A DNA stretch of 64,000 nucleotides from Vasconcelosia minhoensis LEGE 07310 (lineage in GTDB: Bacteria; Cyanobacteriota; Cyanobacteriia; Phormidesmidales; Phormidesmidaceae). This document shows positions 3,332 through 42,791 of the stretch, piece by piece. The stretch covers positions 1-64,000 of the forward strand of contig NZ_JADEXG010000001.1 of the NCBI RefSeq assembly GCF_015207255.1, written 5' to 3'. A model generated the notes under the pieces. That model saw only the letters and a program-made list of their open reading frames with translations, was not told where the DNA came from and did not search any database. Positions within the stretch are counted from its first letter, which is position 1, and every line of letters begins with the position of its first letter. The translations under genes and the position numbers were made by a program.

Positions 3332-5716
3332 ATGGATAGTAATGCTGACTATGTGATCTGGCTGGACAGACTCACCCATCGGGATGTGGAGCGCGTCGGC
3401 GGTAAAAATGCTTCGCTGGGAGAGCTGACGACGGCCCTCCAGCAGGAAGGTGTGCGGGTACCTGAGGGGTTTGCGACCACGGCCAGCGCCTATCGGGCCT
3501 TTATTGAGACCAATCAGCTGGCGGCAGAGATCCAGGCTCAGATGTCTGCGCTGGAACAGGGCAAACAGTCGCTAGAAGCCACGGGTAAGGCGATTCGCCG
3601 ACTGATCAAGACAGCGGACTTCTCAGAGGAGCTATCTAACGCCATTCGGCAGGCCTATCGCGAGCTGAGCCAGCGCTACGGTCGGGATGAGGTAGACGTA
3701 GCGGTGCGCAGCAGCGCCACGGCGGAAGATTTGCCAGACGCTAGCTTTGCCGGTCAGCAGGAGACCTTTCTCAACATCAGCGGCGAGGCCGAGCTGTTGG
3801 AAGCCTGCCGCAAGTGCTTTGCCTCCCTGTTTACCAATCGGGCCATCAGCTACCGGCAGGAAAAGGGCTTTGACCACAGGGCGATCGCGCTTTCAGTCGG
3901 CGTGCAAAAAATGGTGCGGTCTGACCGGGCCTGTGCCGGGGTGATGTTTTCCATCGATACCGAGACCGGCTTCCCCGATGCGGTGCTGCTCACCGGGGCC
4001 TGGGGGCTGGGTGAAACCGTTGTCCAGGGCAGCGTCACGCCGGACCAGTTCACCATCTTTAAGCCGCTGCTCCAGTCGGGGCAGTTTCGGCCAATCATCG
4101 AGAAAAAGAAAGGCTCGAAAGCCAAAAAGATGGTCTACTCCAGTGAGGGCACCAAGACGACCGTGGCGACCATCGGCACCAGCGGCAAAGAGCGCCAGGC
4201 GTTTGTGCTGGACGACGATGAGATTTTGCAGCTGGCCCGCTGGGCGGTGCTGATTGAGCGCCACTACGGCGGCCCGATGGATATGGAATGGGCTAAAGAT
4301 GGCGATAGCGGCGAGCTGTTTATCGTCCAGGCCCGGCCGGAGACGGTGCAGTCGCAGCAGTCCGGCGGTCTGTTAAAAACCTATAAGCTGAAGGAATCGG
4401 GGCCACTGCTGCTGACCGGGTTGAGCATTGGCAGCGCGATCGCGGTTGGGAAAGTCTGCCGGGTGCTCCATCCCAAAGACATCGATAAAGTGGAAGCGGG
4501 CAGCATTTTAGTCACCGAGATGACCGACCCCGACTGGGTGCCGGTGATGAAGAAAGTCGCAGGCATTGTCACTGACTACGGCGGTCGCACCTGTCACGCC
4601 GCCATTGTTAGCCGCGAGCTGGGCATTCCCGCTGTCGTCGGCACCGGCGACGCCACCCGGCGGCTGTCCTCTGGGCAAGAGGTGACCCTCTCCTGTGCTG
4701 AAGGCGACCAGGGCCAGCTCTATGCAGGCCGACTGGACTTTGAGTCGATTGACGTCGATCTCAACGATATTCCTGAAACCCGCACCCAGATTATGATGAA
4801 TATCGCCAGCCCGGCGGCGGCCTTTAACGGGTGGCAGCTCCCGGCTAAGGGGATTGGCCTGGCCCGGATGGAGTTTATTATCAATAATCTGATCAAAATT
4901 CACCCAATGGCCCTGGTCCACTATGACGAGCTAGAAGATCGCGACGCCTGGCAGACGATTCGCGACATGACCCAGGGCTATGACGATAAATGTGAGTACT
5001 TTATCGACCGGCTCTCCCAGGGGATTGGCAAAATCGCCGCGTCCCAATTTCCCCATCCGGTGATCGTGCGGCTCAGTGACTTCAAAACCAATGAATATGC
5101 CGACCTGATTGGCGGCCACGCCTTTGAGCCGAAGGAATCTAACCCAATGCTGGGCTTTCGCGGCGCGGCCCGCTACTACAGCGATCGCTATCGGGCCGGG
5201 TTTGCGCTGGAATGCCAGGCCCTGAAGCGGGTACGAGAGGAAATGGGCTTCGATAATATTGTCATCATGGTGCCCTTCTGCCGCCGCTTAGATGAAGCCG
5301 ACAAGGTGCTGAAGATTCTGGCTGAGCAGGGGTTAGAACGGGGTAAAAACAACCTACAGATCTACGTCATGTGTGAGATTCCAGCCAACGTATTGCTGGC
5401 AGACCAGTTCGCCGAACGCTTCGACGGCTTTTCCATCGGCAGCAACGACCTGACCCAGCTGATCTTGGGCGTTGACCGCGATTCGGCGGAGCTGGCCGAC
5501 CTGTTTGATGAACAGGATGAGGCGGTGAAGACCGCAATTCGGCAGGTGATTGAAAAGGCCCACGCCGCCGGGCGCAAGGTAGGCATCTGCGGCCAGGCCC
5601 CTAGCGACTATCCCGAGTTTGCTCAGTTCTTGGTGGAAGCGGGCATCGACTCAATCTCACTCAATCCGGACAGCGTCGTCCAGGTGAAGCGGCGAGTCGC
5701 CGAGCAGGAAGGCTAG
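3332..5716 (+). CDS. ppsA: Phosphoenolpyruvate synthase
   Basis: Converts pyruvate and ATP to phosphoenolpyruvate, AMP and phosphate (EC 2.7.9.2), for gluconeogenesis. At 794 residues it is the usual length and keeps all three domains. The N-terminal ATP-grasp domain starts at GGKNASLGEL and includes VAVRSSATAEDLPDASFAGQ. The swivelling phosphohistidine domain has GGRTCHAAIVSRELGIPAV, with the catalytic His at residue 422. The C-terminal TIM barrel binds pyruvate/PEP, with GSNDLTQLILGVDRDS and a catalytic-Cys region KVGICGQAPSD. A strong inverted repeat lies just downstream. Another protein in the window (35089-38064) reuses the first two domains without the barrel. Confidence 0.95.
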   Translation: MDSNADYVIWLDRLTHRDVERVGGKNASLGELTTALQQEGVRVPEGFATTASAYRAFIETNQLAAEIQAQMSALEQGKQSLEATGKAIRRLIKTADFSEELSNAIRQAYRELSQRYGRDEVDVAVRSSATAEDLPDASFAGQQETFLNISGEAELLEACRKCFASLFTNRAISYRQEKGFDHRAIALSVGVQKMVRSDRACAGVMFSIDTETGFPDAVLLTGAWGLGETVVQGSVTPDQFTIFKPLLQSGQFRPIIEKKKGSKAKKMVYSSEGTKTTVATIGTSGKERQAFVLDDDEILQLARWAVLIERHYGGPMDMEWAKDGDSGELFIVQARPETVQSQQSGGLLKTYKLKESGPLLLTGLSIGSAIAVGKVCRVLHPKDIDKVEAGSILVTEMTDPDWVPVMKKVAGIVTDYGGRTCHAAIVSRELGIPAVVGTGDATRRLSSGQEVTLSCAEGDQGQLYAGRLDFESIDVDLNDIPETRTQIMMNIASPAAAFNGWQLPAKGIGLARMEFIINNLIKIHPMALVHYDELEDRDAWQTIRDMTQGYDDKCEYFIDRLSQGIGKIAASQFPHPVIVRLSDFKTNEYADLIGGHAFEPKESNPMLGFRGAARYYSDRYRAGFALECQALKRVREEMGFDNIVIMVPFCRRLDEADKVLKILAEQGLERGKNNLQIYVMCEIPANVLLADQFAERFDGFSIGSNDLTQLILGVDRDSAELADLFDEQDEAVKTAIRQVIEKAHAAGRKVGICGQAPSDYPEFAQFLVEAGIDSISLNPDSVVQVKRRVAEQEG

Positions 5717-34102: not shown

Positions 34103-34975
34103 TCATGCGTTGTCCAAATGCTGATCCAGCCAGGCCAGCAGGTCGTGGATCACCTGCTGGGCGTCTAAGTCGTTGTGGGGCTCGTGGTAGGCCCCTGGAT
34201 AGAGGCGCAGGCATTTGTCAGAGAGCTGTATCTGCTGAAAAATTTCGCGGCTGCCCTGGGGGCAGATAATTGGGTCGGCTTCACCGTGAATCAGCAGCAT
34301 CGGCAGGCCCAGCTCGGCGATATGCCGCTTCACCCAGGCAATCGTCTTCAGCGTTTCGCTACCCCAGCGCAGCGTGGCGTAGGGATGCACCAGCGGGTCG
34401 GCTGCCGCTTCCCGATTGACCTCGGGATCGCGGGTCAGGCCGCTGGTATCAATGCCCACTTTTAGCGAAAAGCGGGGAAAGATGCCTGAGAGCAGGCGCG
34501 CGATTGCAACCCGATAGGGCTTGGCCACGCCCACCGGGCGAATCGGCGGCGCGCTGACAACCAGCCCCCGCAGCTGGCTGACTTCTGGCGCATCGGGATA
34601 GCGTAAGACATAGTCCAGTACAATCAGGCCGCCCAGGCTGTGACCCATCAAAAAGAGCGGTGCCTGGGGCTGCCGCTGCCGCACTAGCTGTAAGAACGCC
34701 CGCAGATTTTCCTGATAGTCCTGCCAGCTATCAATATGGCCGCGCTGCCCTTCGGACTGGCCGTGGCCCTGATTGTCGAAGGCGCAAACCGCATAGCCCG
34801 CCTGGGTAAAGTCAGCCGCGATCGCGGCATAGCGACTAGAGTGCTCACCCAGACCATGCACCAGCGCGAGAATGCCGAGCGGCGTTCTCGCCGGGCACCA
34901 TGCCTGATAGTAGAGTGACAGCCCATTCGCGCCGGTGAAGGTGCCTTCAGTCTGAGTCAGCTGAGTTGAGGTCAT
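34103..34975 (-). CDS. Alpha/beta hydrolase, monoacylglycerol-lipase-like
   Basis: 290 residues of the alpha/beta-hydrolase fold in the lysophospholipase/monoacylglycerol lipase branch. Oxyanion region LVHGLGEHSSRY, FDNQGHGQSEGQRGHI, nucleophile Ser113 (GHSLGG), catalytic Asp in LIHGEADPII and His in GAYHEPHND. No signal peptide. It lies 113 bases downstream of the PlsY-like fusion gene on the same strand, so a shared lipid theme is plausible. Confidence 0.9.
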   Translation of the reverse strand: MTSTQLTQTEGTFTGANGLSLYYQAWCPARTPLGILALVHGLGEHSSRYAAIAADFTQAGYAVCAFDNQGHGQSEGQRGHIDSWQDYQENLRAFLQLVRQRQPQAPLFLMGHSLGGLIVLDYVLRYPDAPEVSQLRGLVVSAPPIRPVGVAKPYRVAIARLLSGIFPRFSLKVGIDTSGLTRDPEVNREAAADPLVHPYATLRWGSETLKTIAWVKRHIAELGLPMLLIHGEADPIICPQGSREIFQQIQLSDKCLRLYPGAYHEPHNDLDAQQVIHDLLAWLDQHLDNA

Positions 34976-35088: not shown

Positions 35089-38064
35089 CTAAAGAATTTC
35101 GATGGTACCGTGCCAGCCATCTAATCGTACCCGCTGGCCGTCAGTCAGGGACTGGGTCGCTGCCGTCACATCCATGACCGCTGGAATGCCGTATTCCCGA
35201 GCGACGATCGCGCCATGGGAAAGCTGTCCGCCCACCTCAGCGATCAGGCCGCCCGCCCGAGCCAGCAGCGGCACCCAGCCGGCATCGGTATAGGGCACCA
35301 CCAGGACAGTCTGGCGATCGACTTCAGCCGTCATATCAAGCCGGGTGAGGATGCGAATCGTTCCCTCCACCAGACCGGGGCTGGCGCCAATGCCTTTGAG
35401 GCTGCTGCTCGGCAGCGCCGCTAGCGATTCATCAGGCGTAGGTGGATGAGGACCAGATGAATCGCCATAGACCAGGTAGGGCACCTGAGCCAGGGCCGCA
35501 TCGCGATCGCGACCGGCCCGGCGCTGAGCAATCTCAGCCTGAGCGGCAGGCCAGTCTGGCTGAGTTACTAAGCTCTGAACTTCGGCCCGGGTCAGAAAGA
35601 AGATATCTCCCTCAGCCTGGAATTTCCCCTGCCTCAACCAGCCCTGCTCTAGCTCGATGAAACAGGCCCGCAGCGCTGCCAGCAGGCGGTTATAGACTTC
35701 GGCGACGCGGCCCTTGAGGTCGAGCCGGGTCTGGACCTGACGGACTTTCCAACGAGCCGCCACCGGTTGAGCACTAGTATCAGAACTGCTATGAGAACTA
35801 GCATCTGCACTGACCGTTGCTTCGGCGTCTGGACCTGAGGCCATCTGCACCAGCAGGGCTCGAACCTGGTGGGGTGCTTCTCGCCAGGTGGGAACTGAAA
35901 TATCGGTTGCCACTTCGCTGAGGTAGCCGTAGCGGTCCAAAAACCGATCGACCTGCTCAAACACCGGCTGAGCTTCTGGCTGCTCTGACAGGGTGGCCCA
36001 AGCCGAGCTCGGTTCGGGGGGCGAGTCGAGCCGACTGAGGAGCGGACGGAGCTGGGTCGCGATCGCGCTGAGCTCTGTCATCGACTGGACTTCAGGATTG
36101 CTGCGGCTGCTGAGTTCGCTGGCGTCTACCTTGAGCAGCGCCTGCCGCAGGGCCAGGCCGAGGGGTGCCAGAATGTTGAAATAGGTCGCCTGCTCTAGCA
36201 GAGCTAGAATCGTTTCGACCCGCTGTAGCCAGTCCTGGGGCGATGTTTCCCCAGCCGCTTCTATCCGGGCTAAGGCTGGCCCAAACTGCTGCTGGTCAGC
36301 CCGGGCAAAGTCCTGGGGTAGCCGCCATTCCTGTCGGGCCAGCCGTAGCAGCCCTGGCAGGTTGCGCAGCGTTGCCGTCAGCGGCGGGCGGCTAAACCCA
36401 GCGCCGCGGGTGAGAAAATCTAGACTTTCGGGCGGCAGCCCCATGCGGCGGAAGAGATCGCCCAGCAGGGTGGCGTTGAAGTAGGCTCGGGAATAGCGCA
36501 GGCTGGCGGTCTGCTCAAAGTCGATGCCTGCCGCCCGCTGCTTCAGTACCAGGGTAAACAGCTGCCCCCAGACGCCACAGGTGAGGGGGCGGTTAATCGA
36601 CCAAGTGAGGGGCGGGATGACGCCGGGAATCACCTCGGCGGCAATCTTACGGGTCCAAATCGGCGATAGGTTAGTGATCGGTCGGCTTTGCAGCACCCAG
36701 AGCTGCTCGCCGTCAAAACTCCATTCCACGTCCTGGGGCAGGCCGTGATACCGGGCTTCTAAGTGACGGGCCAGAAAGGCGACCTGCTGTAGCAGATTGG
36801 CAGGAACCTGGCCGTGGCCCTGGATTGCCGGAGTTTGTTCGGCGGGAGGCAGCCAGGACTGGTCGGGGTCGATCAGCCGGTCATCGATGCTGACCCGGTA
36901 GCGTTCTGGCGTCACCTGGCCAGACACCACCTGGGTGGCAGCCCCGGGCAGAGCCTCGATCACGACGGCATTGCCGGCCTGGGCAACCGGATCGCGGCTG
37001 AAGGCCACGCCGGAAAAAACGCCCGGCACCTGCCGCTGTACCAGAACGCTCATGCCGCCCTCTGGCAGTCCTCGGTCTCGGCGGTAGCGGCGGGCGGCGG
37101 GGCGGTTATAGGCATTGAAGCAGGCCGCGATCGCGGCTTCCAATTCTTCTCCACTGGTCAAATCCAGTATCGACAGGTACTGACCCGCCGCCGAAGCGGT
37201 CAGCAGGTCTTCCCCTACTGCTGAAGACCGAGCGACGACGGGCTGGCTGGGCAGCGGATTGATCAGCTCAACCAGCAGGGTGGGGTCGTCTCCAGCGGGC
37301 AGCACGTAGCCCGGCGGCACCGGGTAGCCCCAGGCCGTGAGCTGAGATAGCGTCGCGGCCTTAGTGCCCACTTTTTCAGGTCGAAGCTTTTGACTCAGCG
37401 GCTGCAGCGCCCGCCCGCCGCGAAAAAATTGAAACATCCGCCGTGACTCTCCAGCTTGTTCGGGCAAATCTAAATCATCGGACAGCTGCTGATAGATCCA
37501 GGCCAGCAGCCCGGATAGGCAGGCGACCGCTAAGACTCGCGAGCCATCGCCATACCGCAGGCCGGTGAGAATTGGGAGTAAAATCAGCGGCACCAGCCGT
37601 CCCTGATGGCGGAGGCGAAACAGCGTAAAGCTGACCAGGCTGATCAGCAACGTCAGCCCTGCGATCACTGGGTCGTAGAAGATGAATCCCCAAGTCACGT
37701 TAGTTGCCCCCGCACCGCGACCCATCCAATAGCGGCCCATGACTAGAGCAATCAGCGCCAGTATGGGCCAAACCGGGTCAGCTCCAAAAAAGTATTGCGC
37801 GATCGCAACCGCCCCAATCCCCTTCAGCGCCTCAGCCACGACCGATATAACGCCAACCGCCGTCCCCCCATGGTAGAAGGCTGCCGAAACGCCCACATTG
37901 CCAGTCCCAATCTGAGCCAGCCGTTTTCCTGTCAGCCCGCGCACGATCCAGCCGCTCAGAGGCAGCCCCCCTAAGATCGGGCAAAAGATAAAAATCAGCA
38001 GCGCGCCATACACCTGAGCCATATTCAAGCCTACGCCATTCCCCTCAGATACCCACCCCATCAC
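35089..38064 (-). CDS. PlsY-like membrane domain fused to ATP-grasp and phosphohistidine domains
   Basis: 991 residues from GTG 38064; ATG 38022 (MAQVYGALLIF) is a good alternative. Residues about 15-200 resemble PlsY, the acyl-phosphate:glycerol-3-phosphate acyltransferase, with five or six helices and GTGNVG; however, the GHxxPxFxxFKGGKG site reads GRYWMGRGAGATN, so the usual His and Lys are gone. Residues about 225-465 are the ATP-grasp domain of PEP synthases (KVGTKAATLSQL, VVARSSAVGEDLLTASAAGQ, DVEWSFDGEQLWVLQSRPIT). About 470-880 is a helical region of unknown type, and 885-991 is the swivelling domain with catalytic His950 (GGQLSHGAIVAREYGIPAV). The pyruvate barrel is absent. The order after the membrane part matches rifampicin phosphotransferase, which phosphorylates a small molecule. 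The substrate here is unknown; a lipid is an inference. Confidence 0.85.
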   Translation of the reverse strand: MMGWVSEGNGVGLNMAQVYGALLIFIFCPILGGLPLSGWIVRGLTGKRLAQIGTGNVGVSAAFYHGGTAVGVISVVAEALKGIGAVAIAQYFFGADPVWPILALIALVMGRYWMGRGAGATNVTWGFIFYDPVIAGLTLLISLVSFTLFRLRHQGRLVPLILLPILTGLRYGDGSRVLAVACLSGLLAWIYQQLSDDLDLPEQAGESRRMFQFFRGGRALQPLSQKLRPEKVGTKAATLSQLTAWGYPVPPGYVLPAGDDPTLLVELINPLPSQPVVARSSAVGEDLLTASAAGQYLSILDLTSGEELEAAIAACFNAYNRPAARRYRRDRGLPEGGMSVLVQRQVPGVFSGVAFSRDPVAQAGNAVVIEALPGAATQVVSGQVTPERYRVSIDDRLIDPDQSWLPPAEQTPAIQGHGQVPANLLQQVAFLARHLEARYHGLPQDVEWSFDGEQLWVLQSRPITNLSPIWTRKIAAEVIPGVIPPLTWSINRPLTCGVWGQLFTLVLKQRAAGIDFEQTASLRYSRAYFNATLLGDLFRRMGLPPESLDFLTRGAGFSRPPLTATLRNLPGLLRLARQEWRLPQDFARADQQQFGPALARIEAAGETSPQDWLQRVETILALLEQATYFNILAPLGLALRQALLKVDASELSSRSNPEVQSMTELSAIATQLRPLLSRLDSPPEPSSAWATLSEQPEAQPVFEQVDRFLDRYGYLSEVATDISVPTWREAPHQVRALLVQMASGPDAEATVSADASSHSSSDTSAQPVAARWKVRQVQTRLDLKGRVAEVYNRLLAALRACFIELEQGWLRQGKFQAEGDIFFLTRAEVQSLVTQPDWPAAQAEIAQRRAGRDRDAALAQVPYLVYGDSSGPHPPTPDESLAALPSSSLKGIGASPGLVEGTIRILTRLDMTAEVDRQTVLVVPYTDAGWVPLLARAGGLIAEVGGQLSHGAIVAREYGIPAVMDVTAATQSLTDGQRVRLDGWHGTIEIL

Positions 38065-38099: not shown

Positions 38100-41000
38100 T
38101 CACTCGATCACCCCATCACTCTCCCATTCTCCTCGCTCGGGCAGCAGCTCAGCAGCCCTCTCCGAATTTGCAGCCAGATAGTCCCGCAGCCAGGTCCGCC
38201 CCTGCTGAATCAGTGATTCCAAGCATCCATTCCAGATCCAAATTGTATTGTCACTCGCTACGGCCAACCGTTCACCCAGCGGGTCAAAATCGATATCCGA
38301 AATCGGACTGCGATCGCGCTGAATCACCTGAATTGACTTTCCGTCTCGGCTCCACAGCCGCACGGTCTGGTCGTCACTGGCCGAGGCTAAGACCTGGCCG
38401 TTTGGGCTAAAGCAGAGGCGACGGACGCGATCGCGATGTCCATGGAGCTGACGCCGTTCCCGCCCGGCCAAATCCCACAGCCGAATGGTGCCGTCGCCCC
38501 TCGCTGTCGCAATCCGCTCGCCGTCCGGGCGGAAGCGAGCGCAGCAGGCACCACCGTCGTGTCCGCCAATGGTCCGTATTAGACCCTGGGCGAGCTGCCA
38601 CAGTCGCACCGTACCATCTTCACCCGCTGAAACCAGGTGCTGACCGCTGGGATCAAAGGCAACATCCCAAACCGTGCCGTCATGTCCAGTCCAGTGGCTG
38701 ACTAAGGTGCCATCTCGCTGCCACAGCCGCACGGTGCCGTCGGCTCCCGTCGAAGCAATCAGCTGGCCGTCGGGGCTAAAGCAAACCTGCCAGACTGCGT
38801 CGTGGTGGCCGTAGAAGGTGCGCAGGAGCTGGCCGTCTCGCTGCCACAGGCGCACCGTATGGTCGGCGCTGGCGGAAACCAGCTGCTGACCGTCGGGACT
38901 CCAGCTGAGGCTGTGAATGCTGCGTCGATGGCTGCCTAGCGTCTGAAGTAGCTCGCCATCCGCATTCCATAGCCGAATGGTGTCATCCTCACTGGCGCAG
39001 ATCAGTCGCTCTCGGGGATGCCAGCAAATGCTGTGAATGGGGCCGCGATCGCGCTCATAGCGGGTCGGCGGCAGACCGACTAGATCCCACAGCCGCACAA
39101 CCGGGTCTTCTCCGGCGGAAACTAGGTGACGTCCGTCCGGATGCCAATCTAGACTCGAAATGCTGCTAGGGCTGCGTAGGGTTTGCTGCGTGCCCCCGTC
39201 GAGATCCAAAATGGTGACCTGCCGACTGGCGCTCACTGTGCTCAGCCGCTGACCGTCGGGGCTAAAGCAGAGGTCGCGAACGCGGTCATGACCGACTTCA
39301 AAGGTCTTCAGCAACGTGCCGTCTAGCTGCCACAGCCGCACCCTATGGTCTTCGCCACCGGAGGCAATCAGCTGGCTATTGGGGCTAAAGACGGCGATTG
39401 AGATGCCGCCCCGGTGACCTTTCAAGGTCTGAACAGTTTTGTCTAGCAGATTCCAGAGCCTCAGTCTGCCGTCTGTACTCGTGGCCAACAGCCGCCGCCC
39501 GTCAAGGCTAAAGCGAACCCTCTGCACCTCGCTCTGGATTTCTAGGGTTTTGAGCAGCTTGCCCTCCAGGTTCCAGAGGCGAACGGTGCGATCGCGGCTG
39601 CCCGAGACTAAAAGTGCGGCCTTGGGATTGAAATGAACGCTGCTGACGCTGTCGGTATGGCGGTTGAGCTGATGCAGTAAGGTGCCGTCACGATGCCACA
39701 GGCGGACGGTGCGATCGCGGCTCGCGGTTGCCAGCTGCTCTCCATCGGGGCTAAAGCAAACGTCCAGCACCGCTTCCCGATGGCCGGTTAGGGTTTGTAG
39801 CAGTCTGCCCTGACGGCCCCAGAGTTTGACCATCCGGTCTTCACTCGCGGAGGCAATCAGCTGACCGTTGGGACTGCAGCAGACTCGATGTACTCGGCCC
39901 CGATGGCCCACCAGCCGATTTTTCTCGTGAATACCGCGCAGCACCTGTTCCAGTGCCTGGCTGATCTGAAGCTTCACCGTCGCACCGGTCTCTGTTTCTT
40001 GCTTCGCATCCACAAATGTATCGGACGCAGCCTGTTCAGCCCCCTGAAGCGCCGCCATCAGCGCCCCCAGCCCGTCGCCAGACTCCATTAGCGCTTGGGC
40101 CGCGATCGCCCAGGCCCGCACCGCTGCGATTTTCGTCTGCTGGCAGGACTGACCAAGCTGGGCCAGTGTTTGAGCCTGTTCGCATAGGGTGCTTTGCAGC
40201 TGGGCCTCAGGGCGGGGCTGCCGTCGCCGCTGGGTGGGGAGAACTTCAGCTAGACCGGCCTGCGGCGGGAGCAGGTCTCCCAAGGTACCGTGAACAAGCT
40301 GATAGCGTAGGCCAGACGGCTCAGATAGGATAAACAGCAGCCCAGACTGGGTGAGGATTTCTAACACCAGGTCCAGCTCATCGGCAGAAATGCCTGCTAG
40401 GGCAAGGGCGTCTTCCAACTCAGAACGAGTTTTGCAAGATGGGGGGGCATCTTCGCTCAGCAGATAGAGAATAGCCTCAGCCAAAGTTGCGTTTTCTGGT
40501 CCACAGTCCTGGATCGCCGCTTTGAGGAAGGTCTGTAACAGTATGGCTTTTGGCGCTTCGCCCAGCTGCTGATACTGACTTAAGGTGGTGATTCCCTGCC
40601 GCTGGAGCTGGGTTCCGATAGTCTGCATTGTCAGCGGGTGAATCTGCCCGTTGGCGTCGGCCAGGTCCGCTATCAGGGCCGAAATCAGGTCGTCCTCCAG
40701 GTAGACCTGAGCCTGGTCTGTAAGCTGACGGATGGCAGCAGCAGCGGCGTCCGGCTGAAAGGGGCGCAGCTCGTATCGAATTTTTCGGCTCAGAACGTCA
40801 CTATTGATTGGGTCTACAGCAATCTGGCGACCCCACTCTAGCAGCTGGGGCAGCGTGTCCTGCCGCAGCGAGAGCAGCACTTTGAGATAGGACTTTTGCA
40901 AACCGTCGCTCAGAAATTGATAGAAGCTGAGCCGCTGGGCCAGCCGCTGCTGAAAAAAATCTTCAAACTGGTCGAAGATCAGCACGATTTGGTCATACTG

Positions 41001-42791
41001 CTTCGCTAGCTGCTGTAGCCGCTGCTGTGGAGTTGAGGTATCGTTTTCGAGGGCTTTGGGCTGGCTTAGGGCCTGCGCGATCGCGCTTTCCCAAGGGTCA
41101 TACCAATCGATCAGGATCGGCAGCAGCGTCCGGCGGCTGTCTGCCGGCGGGGTTCGCAGCTGAGGCAGCAGACCGGCTCGAAGCAGCGTACTTTTGCCCA
41201 CGCCCGGCAGCCCGTGGAGCACCGTCAGGGGATGGTCTGAGCGCAGACGGGCGACTAGCGCCTCTACTTCTGCCTGCCGCCCTGCTGCTGAAGTCTCTAA
41301 AGTGGGGCTGGCGTCAAGTCCTGAGTTCCAGCTGGGAGGTTGCAGAGCGGGAAGCGGTGAGGCTCCGATGAAAGCCTGCTGCCCCAGTTGATACTCCACC
41401 TGCTGCTGCTCTCGTCGCAGCTCAAAAGCGCGGCGGTAGTCCTTTTGATCAACGTATAGCTGCCGTAGCAGCTTCAGGATCTGCCGATACAGAACCCGAT
41501 TATCGGCGGGGTTAGTCTGCTGCTGAGCCAGTTCGAGCTGTTCCTGGGCGACGCTGGTTTTTCCCTGGAGCAGCAGCGCCCGGCCCAGCAGTGCATGGTA
41601 GGAACTGCGGTGTTGAGCAGTTTCAACCCCCGTTTCGGAAACGCTGCGGTCTTCCGGCCCAGAGAGTTGTAGAGCCTGTTGAGCATAGGCTTGAGCCGCC
41701 GCCGCCGAAGCGGGTGCGGAGTCGCCCAGCTCGACCCTGGCCAGATAGCCATAGTCTCGCGCTAGCCGAATCGGGTCTGACTGATGCAGCGCTTTGCCCT
41801 CTTGGGCTACCTCAGCTAGGGCAGGCCAGTCCTCTAGAATTTGCAGCACCTCGGCTAAGGCGTGGATAAAGCGTCCCATCCGCGACTTCTGGCCCAACTG
41901 CCGCAATAGCGTCAGGCCGTCGGCAAAATAGTCCCGCGATCGCTGATAGGACGAAACCTCAGTGGCCCGTTTCCGCGCTGCCTGACTGCACCACCAGAGC
42001 CCCAGATGAAACAGCAGAACAGCCCGTTTGGCCTGGCCCGATGGCGTATCCTGCGATCGCCAGTAGAGCAGGCTGCGTTCGTAGCGATCGCGGGCCGCCT
42101 TTTGCCGCTGACGATGTGCCTGGCGGCCTTCGGCCAACAGCAGGCTGGCCCGCAGGTCTTCATCGATGGACGAGGCAAATTTTTCTAAATCGGCGAGGGC
42201 GAACGGCAATTCTGCCTGAAGCAGGGGCCGGCCGATGTCTCCGGGCCACAGTGGCGCATTCGGCCAGACCGGGGCATTGTCGAGAAAATGGCCAAATAAT
42301 GTCTCCAGCTCCTGCTGCAAAGCTGACCTTAGGGCAGCCTGCGGATATTCAAACCGAATGGGCGCGGCGGCCAGCCGCTGGAAATCCGGCGCATCCTGAC
42401 TGAGCTGCTGGATTTCAGCGTCGTTTACCCACAGCACCAGGGGATATTTGAACGTATGGGGCCACTGGTGGCGTTCTTGGTTAGCTGCTTTTAGGCTAGA
42501 CGACAGCTCGGATAGCTGCTCCAGCCCGGTCACCAGCACTAGCTCGGGCTGCGTTTCGGCAGTCTGTTGAACAATGGCCTGCCGCAGCCCCGGCCCCAAC
42601 GGCGACAGCGTTACCCTTTGAAACTTCAGGGTTTCTTGCAGTTCGGCGATGAGAAACTGCCGCAGCTGGCTGTAGTTCGCCCGCGCCAGAATCAGCGAAA
42701 ACTGCCCCGCGCCGATGGTCGCTGCCCGCCTCAGACTGTGCAGCGCGTTTTTGTTGTAGGTAATGATGTCAACGGATTTGGCAGACGGCAT
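38100..42791 (-). CDS. STAND-type ATPase with 14 WD40 repeats
   Basis: 1563 residues. Residues 1-180 look like a degenerate NTPase-like input domain (LILARANYSQLRQFLIAELQ, then PLVLWVNDAEI), followed by a TPR-like helical part (about 190-480). The STAND NTPase core has Walker A GLPGVGKST (about 526-534) and Walker B-like IVLIFDQFEDFFQQ, with the winged-helix region after it. From about residue 960 there are 14 WD40 units (GHxxxVxxVxFSPDGxxxASASxDxTVRLW), enough for two seven-bladed propellers. Such proteins act as switch-like sensors in signalling or defence. The next gene (PlsY-like fusion) starts 35 bases downstream on the same strand. Confidence 0.88.
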   Translation of the reverse strand: MPSAKSVDIITYNKNALHSLRRAATIGAGQFSLILARANYSQLRQFLIAELQETLKFQRVTLSPLGPGLRQAIVQQTAETQPELVLVTGLEQLSELSSSLKAANQERHQWPHTFKYPLVLWVNDAEIQQLSQDAPDFQRLAAAPIRFEYPQAALRSALQQELETLFGHFLDNAPVWPNAPLWPGDIGRPLLQAELPFALADLEKFASSIDEDLRASLLLAEGRQAHRQRQKAARDRYERSLLYWRSQDTPSGQAKRAVLLFHLGLWWCSQAARKRATEVSSYQRSRDYFADGLTLLRQLGQKSRMGRFIHALAEVLQILEDWPALAEVAQEGKALHQSDPIRLARDYGYLARVELGDSAPASAAAAQAYAQQALQLSGPEDRSVSETGVETAQHRSSYHALLGRALLLQGKTSVAQEQLELAQQQTNPADNRVLYRQILKLLRQLYVDQKDYRRAFELRREQQQVEYQLGQQAFIGASPLPALQPPSWNSGLDASPTLETSAAGRQAEVEALVARLRSDHPLTVLHGLPGVGKSTLLRAGLLPQLRTPPADSRRTLLPILIDWYDPWESAIAQALSQPKALENDTSTPQQRLQQLAKQYDQIVLIFDQFEDFFQQRLAQRLSFYQFLSDGLQKSYLKVLLSLRQDTLPQLLEWGRQIAVDPINSDVLSRKIRYELRPFQPDAAAAAIRQLTDQAQVYLEDDLISALIADLADANGQIHPLTMQTIGTQLQRQGITTLSQYQQLGEAPKAILLQTFLKAAIQDCGPENATLAEAILYLLSEDAPPSCKTRSELEDALALAGISADELDLVLEILTQSGLLFILSEPSGLRYQLVHGTLGDLLPPQAGLAEVLPTQRRRQPRPEAQLQSTLCEQAQTLAQLGQSCQQTKIAAVRAWAIAAQALMESGDGLGALMAALQGAEQAASDTFVDAKQETETGATVKLQISQALEQVLRGIHEKNRLVGHRGRVHRVCCSPNGQLIASASEDRMVKLWGRQGRLLQTLTGHREAVLDVCFSPDGEQLATASRDRTVRLWHRDGTLLHQLNRHTDSVSSVHFNPKAALLVSGSRDRTVRLWNLEGKLLKTLEIQSEVQRVRFSLDGRRLLATSTDGRLRLWNLLDKTVQTLKGHRGGISIAVFSPNSQLIASGGEDHRVRLWQLDGTLLKTFEVGHDRVRDLCFSPDGQRLSTVSASRQVTILDLDGGTQQTLRSPSSISSLDWHPDGRHLVSAGEDPVVRLWDLVGLPPTRYERDRGPIHSICWHPRERLICASEDDTIRLWNADGELLQTLGSHRRSIHSLSWSPDGQQLVSASADHTVRLWQRDGQLLRTFYGHHDAVWQVCFSPDGQLIASTGADGTVRLWQRDGTLVSHWTGHDGTVWDVAFDPSGQHLVSAGEDGTVRLWQLAQGLIRTIGGHDGGACCARFRPDGERIATARGDGTIRLWDLAGRERRQLHGHRDRVRRLCFSPNGQVLASASDDQTVRLWSRDGKSIQVIQRDRSPISDIDFDPLGERLAVASDNTIWIWNGCLESLIQQGRTWLRDYLAANSERAAELLPERGEWESDGVIE

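Follow-up and report, generated by a model that had tools for sequence, protein, structure and literature searches.

The DNA analysed here, hereafter the window, comprises 64,000 nt of Vasconcelosia minhoensis LEGE 07310 (GCF_015207255.1, contig NZ_JADEXG010000001.1, positions 1-64,000, forward strand). It contains a frame, open over 991 codons, for a protein in which a PlsY-like membrane domain is fused to the modules of a phosphohistidine dikinase. The first-pass annotation had described one 991-residue protein at this position, and the frame agrees with it; that the gene lies on the minus strand is new. The frame opens with a GTG at position 38064. As similarity to orthologues begins only at residues 12-15, the start is probably Met15 rather than the GTG. 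The features of the locus are:

34103..34975, minus strand: alpha/beta hydrolase (Hydrolase_4, lysophospholipase/monoacylglycerol-lipase type), 114 bp downstream of the fusion, same strand
35089..38064, minus strand: fusion protein ORF, 991 codons opening with GTG; translation likely begins at Met15 (ATG 38020-38022)
37465..38022, minus strand: PlsY-fold membrane domain, residues 15-200 (PF02660; profile alignment to cyanobacterial PlsY; AlphaFold2 (AF2) domain model against 5xj7)
37864..37908, minus strand: motif 1, GTGNxxxSAAFYHGG, residues 53-67, with T54, S60 and Y64 at the positions of aaPlsY S35, T41 and R45
37687..37737, minus strand: motif 2, GRYWxxxGAGxTNVxWG, residues 110-126, with R111 and G119 at aaPlsY H92 and K104
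37474..37494, minus strand: motif 3 region, YxxxxDD, residues 191-197, with Y191 at aaPlsY H177 and D196-D197 nearly invariant
36664..37416, minus strand: ATP-grasp domain, residues 217-467 (PPDK_N; structural match to 5hv6_A)
35413..36663, minus strand: predicted middle acceptor-binding domain, residues 468-884, homologue of the rifampin-binding domain of rifampin phosphotransferase (RPH) (phmmer; structural alignment)
35710..35715, minus strand: Lys784-Gly785, at the site of the essential Arg666-Glu667 of RPH-Lm (alignment; PMC4844700)
35092..35412, minus strand: phosphohistidine swivel domain, residues 885-991 (PF00391; structural match to 2e28)
35215..35217, minus strand: codon of the catalytic His950, conserved in 97 of 98 orthologues, the exception being a degenerate copy
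38100..42791, minus strand: nSTAND1-WD40 repeat protein, 1563 aa, at least 14 WD40 repeats, 36 bp upstream of the fusion, same strand

The neighbourhoods of 30 fusion loci revealed no conserved partner gene. The alpha/beta hydrolase adjoins the fusion again only in two related genomes (L081 and L017), a weak association, and the nSTAND1-WD40 neighbour is not a conserved partner except in L081, where a larger relative precedes the fusion. Several other neighbours were named by eye: a bactofilin-like gene directly upstream of the fusion in L014, L016 and L021, a VTE5-like phytol/dolichol kinase gene upstream in one genome (L082/L020), and, downstream of the fusion in another genome (L092) at a distance of 81 bp, a YegS/DGK-like lipid kinase gene.

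The fusion is not a chance product, since 98 distinct orthologues align with it over its full length. A survey of other genomes, which the first-pass annotation had proposed, detected it in 177 of the 291 Cyanobacteriia genomes sampled (153/261 when restricted to good-quality genomes, and 96/130 genera), which rules out a chimera or assembly artefact. GTDB families mostly form clades in the fusion tree, in line with a gene passed on mostly by vertical descent. Its presence follows phylogeny, so that co-occurrence with other families would be confounded. Richelia intracellularis HH01, a diatom symbiont (L015), retains the fusion. In the sampled set it was missing from several families with small genomes, f2 among them (1.6-2.6 Mb in the genomes listed). 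Outside Cyanobacteriia, none was seen in the phylum sample, where most of the genomes lacking a match are not listed individually, nor among genome-contig pattern matches, a search that reaches close relatives only. A search of the open-access literature found no paper describing the fusion; Anabaena all2509 is labelled 'similar to PEPSs' (PMC6616624), and a tie between it and the fusion could not be made.

A Pfam scan matched PF02660 (G3P_acyltransf) at residues 28-189 (58.3 bits, cut-off 24.1), PPDK_N at residues 273-467 (133.7 bits) and PEP-utilizers (PF00391) at residues 916-986 (75.9 bits). It found no pyruvate-barrel family, the protein ending with the His domain, and no family covering the middle region. 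This upholds the order read earlier from the sequence: PlsY-like domain, ATP-grasp domain, helical middle and phosphohistidine domain, without a pyruvate barrel. The phosphohistidine candidate, His950, sits within GGQLSHGAIVARE. Lack of the C-terminal pyruvate/PEP-binding barrel, together with a TIGR01418 (PEP synthase) score of 156 bits against a cut-off of 739.75, rules out a PEP synthase or PPDK identity. A separate 794-aa PEP synthase-like ORF lies on the same contig, at positions 3332-5716 of the window.

The soluble half is closely related to RPH. By phmmer, residues 274-991 align end to end with the Listeria enzyme (5hv2/5fbs), and in the structural comparison the same is true of residues 217-991. 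The fusion thus has the RPH order of ATP-grasp domain, RIF-binding-type domain and C-terminal swivel His, as the first-pass annotation had recognised. The AF2 model of the fusion (10 sequences, mean pLDDT 77.7, pTM 0.51) places the membrane domain unreliably relative to the dikinase. Its residues 217-991 matched RPH 5hv3 with Z 34.5 over 674 residues; the high rmsd of 19 Å arises because domain placement differs, and the single domains superpose well. The ATP-grasp domain matched 5hv6_A with Z 22.1 (223 residues, 2.4 Å), and the phosphohistidine domain matched 2e28 with Z 14.4 (1.4 Å over 107 residues).

The middle region had been called helical and unassigned. It is helical, and judged by the phmmer and structural alignments it is the RPH acceptor-binding domain, a homology already known; these matches also rule out a new fold. 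A known domain with a different role had been named as a finding that would speak against the proposed phosphotransfer. The domain is a known one, and its role fits the proposal rather than contradicting it. Its signature, at residues 470-500, is WTRKIAAEVIPGxxxPLTWSINRPLTCGVWG, which includes the conserved basic residues R472 and K473. The middle domain was also absent from 10 genomes without the fusion, in a search without its own positive control.

RPH-Lm requires K22, R117 and His825 for activity (PMC4844700). K22, R117 and E297 correspond to K235, R279 and E447 of the fusion; K235 and R279 are each present in 98/98 orthologues, and His950, the equivalent of His825, in all but the one degenerate copy. 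Because these catalytic residues are conserved, transfer of the beta-phosphate via His950 is strongly suggested. The acceptor side is different. When Arg666-Glu667 of RPH-Lm is changed to Ala, transfer to rifampin is lost and the first half-reaction is unaffected (PMC4844700). The Glu667 position is Gly in 88, Ala in 7 and Asn in 3 of the 98 orthologues, and never Glu, as would fit an acceptor that does not have to be deprotonated. Among five stand-alone dikinases that we aligned, four had Arg-Glu and one Arg-Gly. Loss of the Glu alone therefore does not mean a carboxylate acceptor, and we set aside the argument that it proves one. With Arg666-Glu667 absent and an NF041857 (rifampin phosphotransferase) score of 202.2 bits against a cut-off of 999, the fusion is not RPH proper.

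The membrane half has the PlsY fold. Its hhalign match to a profile of 29 cyanobacterial PlsY proteins had 98.2% probability over 185 columns, and the domain modelled alone with AF2 (pLDDT 82) superposed on aaPlsY 5xj7 with Z 16.5 (174 residues, 2.9 Å). Four solved aaPlsY forms gave Z 16.1-16.5, compared to Z 5.3 for the next unrelated fold. The possibility, raised earlier, that residues 1-215 match an unrelated membrane family is thereby answered in favour of PlsY. The acyltransferase site is altered, as previously noted: R45, H92, K104, H177 and N180 of aaPlsY are absent in 98/98 orthologues, and the fusion scores 24.0 bits with TIGR00023, the PlsY equivalog (cut-off 137.2).

In aaPlsY, eight side chains hold the substrates (S35, T41, R45, H92, K104, S142, H177 and N180): S35, R45, K104 and N180 plus S142 and H177 clamp G3P, while T41, H92 and the glycine-rich Loop3 form the acyl-phosphate site (PMC5700162). 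In the fusion the S142 region varies, and Ile/Leu194 stands in place of N180. The S35 position is Thr in 96/98 and the T41 position Ser in 90/98 orthologues; changes of these types leave aaPlsY with about 17% and half of its activity, respectively (PMC5700162). H92 forms the phosphate hole for acyl phosphate, and no tested substitute is tolerated there (PMC5700162). Its equivalent is Arg in 98/98 orthologues, which counts against the best explanation given below, and the glycine-rich loop is altered to GxGxTN. The PlsY part has its own conserved set, with N56, E78, R111, N122 and W125 in 98/98 orthologues, D196 in 97/98 and D197 in 96/98. Since most of the G3P-holding residues are replaced by this different set, the PlsY-like part is, on the evidence of the alignments, not an ordinary G3P acyltransferase, and it has the look of a functional, though different, active site rather than of an anchor left by decay. 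The same genome encodes a canonical PlsY separately (contig C105), which rules out the fusion as this cell's ordinary PlsY. All but one of 116 sampled genomes had a PlsY-family match, nearly always canonical and of about 220 residues, and in this sample the fusion was a second, weaker match.

These changes bear on a phosphate-type acceptor, in which the enzyme would make a diphosphate (for example, from a prenyl or lipid monophosphate) while the PlsY-like domain holds the lipid phosphate. Such a reaction requires no deprotonating Glu, and R111, like R472 and K473 of the middle domain, is basic and conserved. PPDK, a relative, uses Pi as one of its acceptors. Against this, PlsY's cationic phosphate clamp (R45, K104) has gone, the acidic D196/D197 have been gained, and an adjoining pathway gene was not found. 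We consider this reading improbable.

Do the two halves work together? In G070 (C123, L125:3080-6012) they are encoded by adjacent genes, one for a PlsY-like protein (207 aa) and one for a dikinase (770 aa), which overlap by 4 bp. Other genomes carry degenerate forms: G001 (L126) has a second copy of 591 aa that lacks the middle, genus g110 (L123, L124) has stubs of 427 and 464 aa, and G169 (L127) has a 900-aa copy in which His950 is Gln; L187 and L176 are partially degenerate. We scored decay at 16 positions of the PlsY part and 12 of the dikinase in 102 sequences. Both halves were intact in 95, both were hit in 6, in one the only hit was a mild change in the PlsY part, and none was hit in the dikinase alone. 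The nominal Fisher value for joint decay is 5e-9, which overstates independence, as the six decayed sequences represent five lineages. Because the halves are overlapping neighbours in G070 and both sites decayed together in five lineages, the sequences suggest that the halves share one task and that neither is maintained for a task of its own. Relaxed selection on the whole protein could give the same picture of joint decay. The degenerate copies L123, L124, L126, L127 and L187, which are paralogues or orthologues, retain open frames of about 430-960 codons, having lost the PlsY motif and the ATP-grasp/His residues; they are possibly non-catalytic proteins with a retained role.

The same data weigh on the view that the PlsY-like domain is a membrane anchor only and that the dikinase acts, like RPH, on a soluble metabolite or xenobiotic. 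RPH and the closest named families are soluble small-molecule kinases, as this view would have it, but polar motifs invariant across 98 diverse sequences are unexpected of a mere anchor, and copies with a dead dikinase lose exactly these motifs. We regard an anchor-only role as very unlikely.

Taken together, we favour a membrane-anchored dikinase that acts on a lipid-like acceptor, a reading we hold with some confidence. The best explanation overall, that of a membrane-bound RPH-type phosphohistidine dikinase whose PlsY-like site supplies or consumes the acceptor, seems to us evenly poised. To judge from the conserved catalytic residues, the ATP-grasp domain would bind ATP and pass its beta-phosphate to His950, releasing AMP and Pi. 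The swivel domain would then carry the phosphate to the middle domain, whose fold is shown, and phosphorylate an acceptor there. The PlsY-fold domain, predicted to be unable to use glycerol 3-phosphate as PlsY does, would supply or consume that acceptor through its own conserved pocket; in true PlsY the active site opens at mid-depth of the cytoplasmic leaflet. A weaker inference is that a lipid, or a precursor of one, serves as this acceptor and enters the PlsY-like site as well. The first-pass annotation had proposed that the membrane part may present a lipid-like acceptor, which receives the beta-phosphate; the conserved residues speak for the passage of beta-phosphate via His950, while a lipid presented by the membrane part is plausible only.

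In the form that we prefer, the acceptor would be a carboxylate such as a fatty acid, and the product an acyl phosphate, the substrate class bound by PlsY-fold enzymes; the PlsY-like site would then hand the acyl group on, not to G3P but to another acceptor. Two points speak for this form: the PlsY fold is made to hold acyl phosphate, and the RPH Glu for hydroxyl transfer is missing. It fits slightly better than the original proposal, and we put it forward tentatively.

The main rival is a serious one: a lipid-alcohol kinase, in which the PlsY-like domain would do no more than bind a membrane alcohol (polyprenol, phytol, diacylglycerol or a glycolipid) for the dikinase to phosphorylate at the hydroxyl, with no acyl transfer. 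Known RPH-type dikinases phosphorylate the hydroxyls of rifampin and phenols (PMC4844700, PMC12167813), and the VTE5-like and YegS/DGK-like genes beside the fusion in L082/L020 and L092 agree with such a role, as single cases. However, Lys-Gly stands here in place of the Arg-Glu on which hydroxyl transfer by RPH depends, and mere lipid capture is not obviously in need of the invariant N56, E78, R111 and N122. We judge a lipid-alcohol kinase possible, if doubtful.

The comparison with known systems sets the fusion apart from each. RPH-Lm (5hv1-5hv3, 5fbs-5fbu; PMC4844700) shares its soluble domains and catalytic equivalents; the fusion adds an N-terminal PlsY-fold membrane domain and differs at Arg666-Glu667 and in its family score. 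Relative to aaPlsY (5xj5-5xj9; PMC5700162), it keeps the fold, with PF02660 above the gathering score, and has the five replaced residues, its own invariant set and an attached dikinase. The phenol-type dikinases HpeHI, CreHI and PpsAB (PMC12167813) have RPH-like modules and hydrophobic small-molecule acceptors, but are soluble, lack a membrane domain and are split into two components (ATP-grasp versus acceptor/swivel). If the acyl-phosphate form is true, FakAB/PlsX supplying PlsY would be similar in that acyl phosphate is made and passed to a PlsY fold, whereas there the proteins are separate and the acceptor is G3P (PMC9136124, PMC10146087).

Activation or modification of a membrane lipid, by a route not described so far, is the probable task of this large, uncharacterised membrane enzyme. 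Were the acyl-phosphate form true, it would be a single-protein, phosphohistidine-driven acylation, in which a membrane fatty acid is activated and its acyl group given to a lipid other than glycerol 3-phosphate, and a new ATP-dependent acylation route special to cyanobacteria. The kinase folds of FakAB/PlsX are unrelated to the fusion dikinase. We know of no other dikinase with a lipid site in an integral membrane domain, and the fusion would be the first. If both centres cooperate, phosphohistidine dikinases would be extended into the membrane. A domain match alone would have these proteins called, for example, 'PEP synthase' or 'G3P acyltransferase', and such labels are misleading. Over half of the cyanobacterial genomes sampled keep this protein of about 1000 residues with its two joined catalytic centres, which points to a step still missing from the known membrane-lipid metabolism of cyanobacteria.
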